This document shows positions 3,980-5,522 of a stretch of DNA of 64,000 nt, one piece after another. Position numbers and translations under genes: made by a program. The notes under the pieces were generated by a model. That model worked only from the letters and a program-made list of their open reading frames with translations. It was not told the DNA's origin and ran no database searches. This stretch comes from Mesorhizobium huakuii (GTDB lineage: Bacteria > Pseudomonadota > Alphaproteobacteria > Rhizobiales > Rhizobiaceae): contig NZ_CP050296.1 of assembly GCF_014189455.1 (NCBI RefSeq), positions 3,344,001 through 3,408,000 of the forward strand, read 5' to 3'. Every line of letters begins with the position of its first letter. Positions within the stretch are counted from its first letter, which is position 1.

Positions 3980-5071
3980 TCAGGCGGCGCCCTGCCGGTT
4001 TTCAAGCATGGCGCGGCGTGCCGAACGGCGCCATTCGACAGCACCGGCAAGGCCGTGCAGCACGGTCTCGGTGGTCGCCCAGTCGATGCAGCCATCGGTG
4101 ATGCTCTGGCCGTAGACGAGCGGCTTGCCGGGCACCACGTCCTGCCGGCCGGCGACGAGATTGCTTTCGATCATCAGGCCGATGATGCGCTCGTCGCCCG
4201 CCGCCACCTGGCCCGCCACGTCGGCCGCGACTTTGGGTTGGTTCTCGGGCTTCTTGCTCGAGTTGGCGTGGCTGACATCGATCATCAGCCGGGGCGCGAC
4301 ACCGATGCGGGCGAGTTCGACCGAGGCCGCCTCGACGCTTGCCGCGTCGTAGTTCGGCTGGACGCCGCCGCGCAGGATGACATGGCAGTCCTCATTGCCG
4401 GTGGTCGTCGCGATGCCGCTGCGTCCGCCCTTGGTCACCGCCATGAAATGATGCGGCTGGGCGGCGGATTTCACCGCCTCGCCGGCGATCCTGAGATTGC
4501 CGTCGGTGCCGTTCTTGAAGCCGACCGGGCAGGACAGGCCCGAGGCCAGCTCGCGGTGGATCTGGCTCTCGGTCGTGCGCGCGCCGATCGCGCCCCAGGC
4601 GACGAGGTCGGCAATGTATTGCGGGGTGGTCATGTCGAGGAATTCGGTCGCCGCCGGCAGGCCGAGATTGTTGACGGCCGACAGCACATTGCGCGCCATC
4701 CTGAGCCCCTTGTCGATGTTGAAGCTGCCGTCGAGGTCCGGATCGTTGATCAGACCCTTCCAGCCGACCGTGGTGCGCGGCTTCTCAAAATAGACCCGCA
4801 TCACGATCTCGAGCCGGTCGGACAGGGTCTCGCGCAGCGCCGCCAGACGGCTGGCATAGTCAACGGCCGCGACCGGATCGTGGATCGAACAGGGGCCGAC
4901 GACGACAAGCAACCGGTCATCGGTACCGCTCAGGATGGCGTGGATGGCATTGCGTGACGCGCTCACGGTGCGCGTTGCCGTCAGCGTGCGCGGGATCTCC
5001 CGCATCACCTGGTCCGGCGTGCTCAGTTCTCGGATTTCCTTGACCCGAAGGTCATCTGTGGTGGTCAACAC
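3980..5071 (-). CDS. aroG: 3-deoxy-7-phosphoheptulonate synthase (DAHP synthase, class I)
   Basis: Catalyses condensation of phosphoenolpyruvate and erythrose-4-phosphate, the first step of the shikimate pathway. Type I signatures are clear: VVVGPCSIHDP (Cys61 is the metal ligand), MRVYFEKPRTTVGWKG (residues 91-106), LNNLG-like segments and the IDVSHANSSKKP metal/substrate motif. The length of 363 aa is close to E. coli AroG/F/H (about 350). The gene has its own leader with an aromatic-rich peptide and a terminator immediately upstream, so expression is probably set by aromatic aminoacyl-tRNA supply. Which amino acid feeds back on the enzyme cannot be read here. Confidence 0.95.
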   Translation of the reverse strand: MLTTTDDLRVKEIRELSTPDQVMREIPRTLTATRTVSASRNAIHAILSGTDDRLLVVVGPCSIHDPVAAVDYASRLAALRETLSDRLEIVMRVYFEKPRTTVGWKGLINDPDLDGSFNIDKGLRMARNVLSAVNNLGLPAATEFLDMTTPQYIADLVAWGAIGARTTESQIHRELASGLSCPVGFKNGTDGNLRIAGEAVKSAAQPHHFMAVTKGGRSGIATTTGNEDCHVILRGGVQPNYDAASVEAASVELARIGVAPRLMIDVSHANSSKKPENQPKVAADVAGQVAAGDERIIGLMIESNLVAGRQDVVPGKPLVYGQSITDGCIDWATTETVLHGLAGAVEWRRSARRAMLENRQGAA

Positions 5072-5111
5072 GGCTTTCTGCTCCTGATTTTAGGAGACCT
5101 GCCGGCTGAAA

Positions 5112-5137
5112 CAAAAAAGCCGCCAGGTCTGGCGGCT
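5112..5137 (-). terminator. aroG attenuator (Rho-independent terminator)
   Basis: On the minus strand GCCGCCAG, a 2-base loop and CTGGCGGC form an 8-bp perfect stem, followed at once by six T. It ends 41 bases before the aroG ATG, after the leader peptide stop. Its 5' arm can instead pair with an identical upstream copy of CTGGCGGC inside the leader ORF (5191-5184), giving the mutually exclusive antiterminator expected of ribosome-controlled attenuation. Confidence 0.88.
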
Positions 5138-5161
5138 GTTCGGATGTTGTTGCTGCAATCT

Positions 5162-5233
5162 TCAGATCGAGCGCAATCCTCCCGCCGCCAGCGAGCTGCT
5201 AAAGTACCAATAGGTGGCGAACAGGTGGATCAT
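5162..5233 (-). CDS. aroG leader peptide (23 aa, Thr-Tyr-Trp-Tyr-Phe)
   Basis: A 23-codon ORF begins MIHLFATYWYF; codons 8-11 are Tyr-Trp-Tyr-Phe, all three aromatic amino acids in a row. The following codons contain CTGGCGGC, the antiterminator arm. A ribosome stalled at the aromatic codons would leave that arm free to sequester the terminator's 5' arm; a ribosome reaching the stop would cover it and allow termination. The predicted transcription start falls on or next to this ATG, so the mRNA may be leaderless. An ATG three codons earlier (5242) overlaps the -10 box and is less likely. Confidence 0.85.
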   Translation of the reverse strand: MIHLFATYWYFSSSLAAGGLRSI

Positions 5234-5240
5234 GCGGCTC

Positions 5241-5269
5241 ATATAGTCGAAGCGGAGGCGTTTGTCACG
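5241..5269 (-). promoter_or_regulatory. aroG leader promoter
   Basis: On the minus strand CGTGAC (5269-5264), 17 bases, then CTATAT (5246-5241). This differs by one base from the rhizobial housekeeping consensus CTTGAC-N17-CTATAT. Initiation about 7-8 bases downstream would coincide with the leader peptide ATG at 5233. Confidence 0.72.
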
Positions 5270-5279
5270 CCCCCGCGTC

Positions 5280-5522
5280 TCAGTTTGAAATGTGCTCGTG
5301 GCCCTGCGGAAACCAGATGCCGCGCCGGAGCCAGTTGGCTCCACCCAAATTGGGCACAACGTGATTCTGGTCGAGATCGTTCATGTCCTTGATGATCTCG
5401 ATGCGGATGATTTTCTCCGCGGATCCGAAGGCAAGTTCGAAGAGTTGCAAGGCGTCGGCTTCCGACCGCGCGGTGATGCCGACACCAAGATGGCCGCTCA
5501 GCGTGATCCAGTATGGGTGCAT
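5280..5522 (-). CDS. Small hypothetical protein (80 aa)
   Basis: An 80-residue ORF lies 12 bases after the SDR stop and ends 46 bases before the aroG leader. The sequence is soluble-looking, with a central segment LQLFELAFGSAEKIIRIEIIKDMNDLDQNHVVPNLG split here as a mixed alpha/beta pattern rather than low complexity. No signal peptide, membrane segment or known motif was recognised, and no strong ribosome site is visible, so it may be translated by coupling to the SDR gene. Its 3' part overlaps nothing else, but the aroG -35 box lies close behind. I do not recognise the family. Confidence 0.5.
   Translation of the reverse strand: MHPYWITLSGHLGVGITARSEADALQLFELAFGSAEKIIRIEIIKDMNDLDQNHVVPNLGGANWLRRGIWFPQGHEHISN

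Follow-up and report, generated by a model that had tools for sequence, protein, structure and literature searches.

How is the first step towards the aromatic amino acids controlled in Mesorhizobium huakuii? AroG catalyses the first reaction on the way to phenylalanine, tyrosine and tryptophan, and in enterobacteria aroF, aroG and aroH are under the protein repressors TyrR and TrpR, according to the same end products. In the 64,000-nt stretch of M. huakuii DNA analysed here (contig NZ_CP050296.1, positions 3,344,001 to 3,408,000; hereafter the window), a short ORF with clustered aromatic codons and a terminator precede an aroG gene, an arrangement that the initial annotation had read as an aromatic amino acid attenuator with a probably leaderless leader. 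Here, we report that the codon block, the terminator, an antiterminator strand inside the ORF and, in alphaproteobacteria, a promoter adjacent to the leader AUG are all conserved, which upholds that reading. Very probably, the leader acts by ribosome-mediated transcription attenuation and adjusts aroG expression to the joint supply of charged tRNAs for Tyr, Trp and Phe; in line with this, the enzyme opens the route to just those amino acids that the codon block contains.

The aroG locus and its leader

The product of the window gene scored 522.5 bits against TIGR00034 (aroFGH; cut-off 173.2) and 308.9 bits against Pfam PF00793, and its closest named relative, among the best 80 of 589, is that of Mesorhizobium ciceri (97% identical). 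The letter G is a matter of convention, because the NCBI AroG-specific model stays below its cut-off (538.5 versus 568) and the NCBI AroH model passes its own (495.8 versus 463). The same genome encodes a class II DAHP synthase (C1:6772825-6774135; PF01474, 698.7 bits), upstream of which the scan for an ORF plus terminator described below found no aromatic leader. Therefore, the window aroG is probably a second, regulated isoenzyme beside the leader-free class II enzyme. A further PF00793 match lies at C1:6113777-6114538.

The 23-codon leader ORF with Tyr-Trp-Tyr-Phe at codons 8-11 that had been annotated upstream of aroG is present on the minus strand (Table 1). This YWYF block before a DAHP synthase gene is a cluster of end-product codons of the attenuator kind; in addition, the terminator lies between ORF and gene, and an antiterminator that excludes it pairs with its 5′ arm. 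The terminator is there with its six T, but with the arms as first given, GCCGCCAG/CTGGCGGC, just 2 nt would remain for the loop; the hairpin is rather AGCCGCCA-GACC-TGGCGGCT, with eight pairs and a 4-nt loop, at 5137-5118 (5137-5113 with the T run). Upstream of the leader, an 80-aa ORF (5280-5522, minus strand), without a match in an NCBIfam search, ends 11 nt before the -35 box.

Table 1. Features of the aroG leader region (window positions)
Feature	Position	Strand	Basis
aroG, class I DAHP synthase, 363 aa, GTG start	3980..5071	-	TIGR00034, PF00793
Shine-Dalgarno AGGAG of aroG	5081..5085	-	sequence
Segment 4: terminator 3′ arm TGGCGGCT 5125-5118, T run 5118-5113	5113..5125	-	predicted 3′ end
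Segment 3, common to antiterminator and terminator; terminator 5′ arm AGCCGCCA 5137-5130	5129..5137	-	
Leader ORF MIHLFATYWYFSSSLAAGGLRSI, 23 codons + TGA	5162..5233	-	ORF translation; comparable ORFs in 106/126 loci
Segment 2, in frame inside the ORF; antiterminator core CTGGCGGC 5191-5184	5175..5192	-	
Regulatory codons 8-11, Tyr-Trp-Tyr-Phe (TAT TGG TAC TTT)	5201..5212	-	aromatic block across relatives
Segment 1, pairs with segment 2 if the aromatic codons are ribosome-free	5213..5231	-	minimum-free-energy fold
Predicted transcription start, A of leader ATG (leaderless)	5233	-	promoter geometry; no Shine-Dalgarno
-10 element TATATG (initial register CTATAT, 5246-5241)	5240..5245	-	ends 6 nt before leader ATG
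-35 element GTGACA (initial register CGTGAC, 5269-5264)	5263..5268	-	conserved in most alphaproteobacterial loci

The leader unit is conserved upstream of aroG

We assembled 126 loci, comprising aroG of the best 80 of 589 named relatives and aroG of 46 genomes of the order (M. huakuii included), and scanned them jointly for an ORF with at least three aromatic residues in six and a terminator shortly 3′ of it. Leader and terminator were found upstream of aroG in 106 of the 126 loci and in none of 1,240 dinucleotide shuffles (ten each of 124 loci). Within the order, aroG was found in 46 of 297 genomes, all 46 of which carry the unit; beyond it, the unit was seen across alpha-, beta- and some gammaproteobacteria. 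Loss of the aromatic codons or of the pairing arms in related genomes had been named at the outset as one observation that would refute an attenuator; we looked for such loss, and the comparison of relatives did not refute it. The scan found no leader at 20 loci, among them those of Citrobacter, Serratia, Pectobacterium, Erwinia, Enterovibrio, Thauera, Azoarcus, Dechloromonas, Methylotenera, Chitinimonas, some metagenome bins, one truncated locus and Candidatus Burkholderia humilis. In this last genome, the leader is seemingly frameshifted in its T-rich aromatic block and the terminator is kept.

This distribution bears on the simplest alternative, namely that the hairpin is a plain terminator of the upstream transcription unit, or that ORF and hairpin stand together by chance. 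A same-strand ORF does end close by and intergenic terminators are common, but neither explains an aromatic ORF that recurs with a terminator in so many loci and in no shuffle, a promoter of the leader's own, located after the upstream ORF, or compensatory changes in the antiterminator (see below). We give this explanation practically no likelihood, and it is refuted as far as sequence can refute it.

We built a covariance model from 47 alphaproteobacterial leaders; of 387 genomes of the class, at least 122 contained matches to it with E ≤0.01. Among the matches listed, 18 were strong (45-118 bits), one per genome and all of full length, including those of M. huakuii and of two more order genomes already sampled above (G021 and G032); 17 of these 18 lie before aroG and one is at a contig end. 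The ORF-plus-terminator scan succeeds at 16 of the 17 strong aroG loci, aroG starting further away in the other (L148). Weaker matches among those listed, of up to 33 bits, are mostly partial and cover the terminator side, and at 12 such loci that were fetched aroG was found at none. The M. huakuii genome holds a single strong copy (112.9 bits). Its next match (29.3 bits) was rejected as a second leader, since it lies beside putative ATP synthase subunit ORFs with no AroG within about 1.5 kb, and we treat it as a likely terminator resemblance.

Leader presence required six changes on an AroG tree of 140 sequences, which was a quick FastTree reconstruction with midpoint rooting. A single clade takes in all 78 alphaproteobacterial rows and has eight Xanthomonadales as its sister group, and 25 of 33 betaproteobacterial leaders lie within one Burkholderiales part. 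Sixteen of the 78 alphaproteobacterial rows came from the leader model; the AroG search had reached the genomes of two of these as well, and the other 14 are no independent evidence because they were found via the leader model alone.

Aromatic codons and the reading frame of segment 2

Three or more aromatic residues in six, the scan criterion itself, are present in 106/106 leaders, and at least four in six in 103/106. Phe and Tyr codons occur in every one of the 106 and Trp codons in 88 (63/64 in alpha-, 9/9 in gamma- and 16/33 in betaproteobacteria). It seems, then, that a single leader monitors the three end products together, except that about half of the betaproteobacterial leaders lack Trp. 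The Phe codons of the 64 alphaproteobacterial leaders are mostly TTT (115 TTT and 23 TTC; 115/138), as is that of the window leader at 5201-5203, and those of ten window genes mostly TTC (18 TTT and 109 TTC; 18/127). It is possible that TTT is preferred in the leaders for low structure in the stall region or for slower decoding.

Outside the aromatic block and segment 2, the peptide sequence varies widely among relatives. The C-terminal part, on the other hand, is conserved and mostly in frame, as LAAGGLRSI in Mesorhizobium and PLAEVGARSI-like sequences in many others. The last codon of the aromatic block is separated from the GGCGG-like motif of segment 2 by 8-26 nt (17 nt in 53/103 loci), yet 94 of the 103 motif-bearing loci agree in its codon frame, a count of related and hence non-independent sequences. 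That the frame is kept despite variable spacing suggests that ribosomes may be meant to pass through segment 2.

A conserved C-terminal part is also what would be expected if the ORF encoded a small functional peptide, or belonged to a dual-function RNA, acting in trans, with attenuation of aroG being secondary; passages of the work on Sinorhizobium meliloti (PMC7298713, PMC10117765) offer a precedent in peTrpL and rnTrpL. The conserved part coincides with segment 2, however, so that RNA pairing can explain its conservation, the remainder of the peptide outside the aromatic block is free to vary, and the strong model matches listed all stand before aroG, bar the one at a contig end. The peptide reading has therefore only a slim chance, and we retain cis attenuation of aroG as the main role of the leader. 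An additional action of the RNA or peptide in trans, suggested at first by analogy with trpL, is conceivable, and the association seen in the strong matches is one in cis.

A promoter adjacent to the leader AUG

The initial annotation had placed the transcription start on or beside the leader ATG, by virtue of a CGTGAC-N17-CTATAT promoter, and this promoter was recovered at 5269-5241. The sigma-70 consensus of S. meliloti is CTTGAC-N17-CTATAT. In most alphaproteobacterial loci, the -35 element is kept as GTGACA, ATGACA or TCGACA, mostly with 17-nt spacing. We applied a fixed-position test that required a hexamer starting with TA 6-8 nt before the ATG and, at 16-18 nt, a -35 match of at least 4/6. 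It was passed by 61/64 alpha-, 5/9 gamma- and 2/32 betaproteobacterial loci, compared with 0.66%, 0.67% and 1.7% of the respective shuffles, which supports the predicted start for the alphaproteobacteria. Three of the four gammaproteobacterial loci that miss the test have a TGTG-TATCA-like extended -10 box at the same position. A generic sigma-70 promoter scan listed nothing at the leader, because its rule requires T at position 6 of the -10 element and TATATG ends in G. A further ATG in the same frame, at 5242, coincides with part of the -10 box and therefore should not be transcribed.

Ribosome binding sites distinguish leader and gene: the longest Shine-Dalgarno match before the leaders is at most 3 nt in 97/103, whereas a match of at least 4 nt precedes aroG in 51 of the 60 loci measured. 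Most loci of Burkholderiaceae and Oxalobacteraceae have their better promoter further upstream, 25-39 nt from the leader ATG, and there the leaders seem, from their sequence, to have a short 5′ UTR, yet without a Shine-Dalgarno sequence. A C stands directly 5′ of the leader ATG in 95/104 loci, including the betaproteobacterial ones with the promoter 25-39 nt upstream. A CA start site explains this C only partly, and we rejected it as sole proof of a start at the AUG.

Might attenuation be real but the leader carry an ordinary 5′ UTR, with transcription starting upstream, for instance by read-through from the 80-aa ORF, and the AUG-adjacent promoter being fortuitous? The start at the AUG is a prediction, and the Burkholderiaceae and Oxalobacteraceae, with their upstream promoters and their C before the ATG that a start site alone does not account for, would fit such a scheme. 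A fortuitous promoter is nevertheless hard to reconcile with its presence in nearly all alphaproteobacterial loci at so low a frequency in shuffles and with its rarity in betaproteobacteria, and no Shine-Dalgarno sequence precedes the window leader. We regard an ordinary 5′ UTR at the window locus as clearly improbable, and a leaderless start as the better reading of the alphaproteobacterial leaders.

Terminator and antiterminator are mutually exclusive

The antiterminator strand CTGGCGGC was located where it had been annotated, but its constant core in relatives is GGCGG and not all eight bases. In 105 usable loci, two positions of this core show the consensus letter in 105 and the other three in 101, 102 and 103; a GGCGG-like motif served as search key for the core alignment, so that this constancy is partly built in. 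Taken alone, the exact 8-nt complementarity of the window locus is modest (p about 0.02 with 100 shuffles), and 45/103 loci reach p ≤0.05 against shuffles. It is conservation that provides the strong evidence.

Both pairings were followed in two alignments, A1 with 47 alphaproteobacterial rows and A2 with 34 beta- and gammaproteobacterial rows, each against 500 column shuffles. The antiterminator pairs in 84.3% of cells in A1 (column shuffles 81.6%) and in 87.8% in A2 (85.0%), and with slid partners in 16.9-57.4%; the terminator pairs in 94.5% and 95.1%, respectively. For both helices, the share of paired cells lies above all 500 column shuffles in A1 as well as in A2. In the antiterminator, cells changed on both sides number 5 in A1 (reached by 27/500 shuffles; covariation score 2/500) and 6 in A2 (1/500; covariation score 0/500). 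In the terminator there are 8 such cells in A1 and 14 in A2, with 0/500 shuffles reaching either these counts or the covariation scores. Neither the number of pairs altered in both partners nor that of additional pair types was above shuffles in A1 or A2, and the consensus fold of A1 recovered the terminator and not the antiterminator, whose edge pairs fail in many species (26/47 at the outermost pair).

Individual changes show how the two helices are kept together. Three Rhizobium-type loci have the 5′ arm GCCGCTAG and AGCGG in the leader, giving an A-U pair in place of G-C in the antiterminator with a G-U pair kept in the terminator, and in betaproteobacteria U-A is changed to C-G or A-U in both helices. 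The covariation is real but thin, because the antiterminator core is nearly invariant. Compensatory changes, although few, thus accompany both pairings, in agreement with the mutual exclusivity that had been proposed from the window alone.

Synonymous recoding of segment 2 provides a separate comparison. In alphaproteobacteria, the 2:3 pairing has a mean energy of -17.1 kcal/mol, versus -13.6 kcal/mol for the recodings, and at most 10% of recodings pair segments 2 and 3 as well as the natural sequence in 26/64 alpha-, 22/33 beta- and 6/9 gammaproteobacterial loci. The 1:2 pairing across relatives is weakly better than its synonymous recodings.

Folding in silico and the proposed switch

The window RNA folds with a z-score of -2.49 relative to shuffles (6/200 as good), and segments 1 and 2 pair with a probability of about 0.995 in the leader RNA alone. 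In the full-length window RNA, the terminator forms with a probability of 1.00, whether the RNA is free or carries a ribosome at the stop codon, and the antiterminator with 0.96 or 1.00 when the ribosome sits on the last or the first aromatic codon. In relatives at equilibrium with a stalled ribosome, the mean probability of 2:3 pairing is 0.19-0.38 in alpha- and 0.07-0.14 in beta- and gammaproteobacteria, and the terminator still wins on average. When transcripts are cut before segment 4, the same mean is at least 0.94 stalled versus 0.55-0.65 free in all groups. The window RNA gave no clean switch in such partial-transcript folding, its 2:3 probability without segment 4 being 1.00 for the stalled and the free RNA and also when the ribosome had reached the stop codon. 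Since 2:3 forms here even without a stalled ribosome, these models suggest that the decision between termination and antitermination is probably kinetic, timed by the moving ribosome and a 1:2 pause hairpin.

From the sequence, its conservation and its pairings, we infer the start site, stalling, termination and regulation as follows. RNA polymerase would start on the A of the leader AUG, and a 70S ribosome would start on the 5′ end of the RNA without a Shine-Dalgarno sequence. When aromatic tRNAs are plentiful, the ribosome would traverse the aromatic codons and segment 2; once it is past segment 2, segments 1 and 2 would pair, the 3:4 terminator would form and the RNA would end at 5113. The predicted transcript, from 5233 to 5113, measures 121 nt, matching the terminated RNA of about 120 nt initially envisaged. 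A shortage of even one aromatic tRNA would make the ribosome stall on codons 8-11 and cover segment 1, so that segment 2, being free, would pair with segment 3 as soon as this is made. The 2:3 pairing would block the terminator and aroG would be transcribed. This would be classical attenuation with two twists, namely leaderless initiation and an antiterminator strand that lies in frame inside the ORF.

Discussion

Which known systems does this leader resemble? In the passages of PMC7298713 and PMC10117765 that deal with it, S. meliloti trpL (rnTrpL) is a ribosome-dependent attenuator on an mRNA that is leaderless from the AUG, gives rise to a short terminated RNA, and has a leader of 14 codons with consecutive Trp codons preceding trpE(G). 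The aroG leader shares with trpL, as described there, its rhizobial setting, the dependence on a ribosome, the leaderless leader and the short terminated RNA, these traits being predicted here; it differs in its 23 codons, in combining Tyr, Trp and Phe, in its target aroG and in having segment 2 inside the ORF. The resemblance to trpL that had been pointed out for the window holds for the predicted leaderlessness and does not extend to the sequence or to the amino acids sensed. Rfam scans gave no family linking the aroG leader and trpL, a link judged here by families alone.

Before a DAHP synthase gene, a uORF with a terminator has been described in the uORFC-13-1 motif, a candidate with Phe codon(s) upstream of Acholeplasma aroF (PMC8632094). 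According to the section of that article on the motif, it differs in occurring in Acholeplasma and environmental sequences, in having an RBS and in containing at least one Phe codon, and none of the 24 representatives given there is proteobacterial (PMC8632094). An older hypothesis of attenuation at E. coli aroF is mentioned in the same source (PMC8632094). By our scan, the enteric and Vibrio-related loci (Citrobacter, Serratia, Pectobacterium, Erwinia and two of Enterovibrio) lack the leader. Control by TyrR and TrpR concerns the same enzyme and end products, but works through repressor proteins and not through RNA.

The pheL leader of enterobacterial pheA (RF01859, Phe_leader) is likewise an attenuator with aromatic codons. 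It carries Phe only, is led by a Shine-Dalgarno sequence and stands before pheA. Against the window, RF01859 reached 20 bits, compared with a gathering score of 55, and matched 5110-5178, the downstream part with the terminator. At the gathering threshold, Rfam showed no family in the window and none at the leader in 13 relatives; permissive scans returned RNAI, Phe_leader, BjrC1505 and others, all far below their cut-offs. Our literature search met no title or abstract on a proteobacterial aroG attenuator, although the survey by Vitreschak et al. of 2004, reportedly a comparative treatment of proteobacterial attenuators, may list one. Within the attenuator kind, the distinguishing traits are the predicted leaderless initiation and the antiterminator inside the ORF.

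Several consequences follow if the leader works as proposed. The attenuator most likely switches aroG on when aromatic amino acids are scarce, and would be a candidate for control of the first aromatic step free of TyrR and TrpR in Mesorhizobium, Bradyrhizobium, Devosia, Xanthomonadales and Burkholderiales. After trpL, it is the second rhizobial candidate for attenuation on a leaderless RNA and so allows one to examine how RNA polymerase is coupled to a 70S ribosome that starts without a leader. In this respect, the leaderless versions of alphaproteobacteria and Xanthomonadales and the UTR-bearing versions without Shine-Dalgarno sequence of many Burkholderiales form a natural comparison. One could go further and imagine an undescribed and ancient family, in which one leader senses three aromatics, accompanies a class I DAHP synthase in alpha-, beta- and gammaproteobacteria, is leaderless in alphaproteobacteria and Xanthomonadales, and constantly yields a 120-nt RNA and an aromatic peptide with other mRNAs as targets, in the manner of rnTrpL and peTrpL; as a whole, this extension would seem rather unlikely.

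The AroG proteins of Mesorhizobium and Bradyrhizobium share about 80% identity, whereas Mesorhizobium AroG and that of a different genus in its family share only 66%. Given these identities and the number of order genomes in which aroG was found, it is possible that aroG has spread horizontally together with its leader. The aroG locus of one relative of the same family (L126) also carries a cobalamin riboswitch, at 446-631 on the minus strand (116.2 bits).
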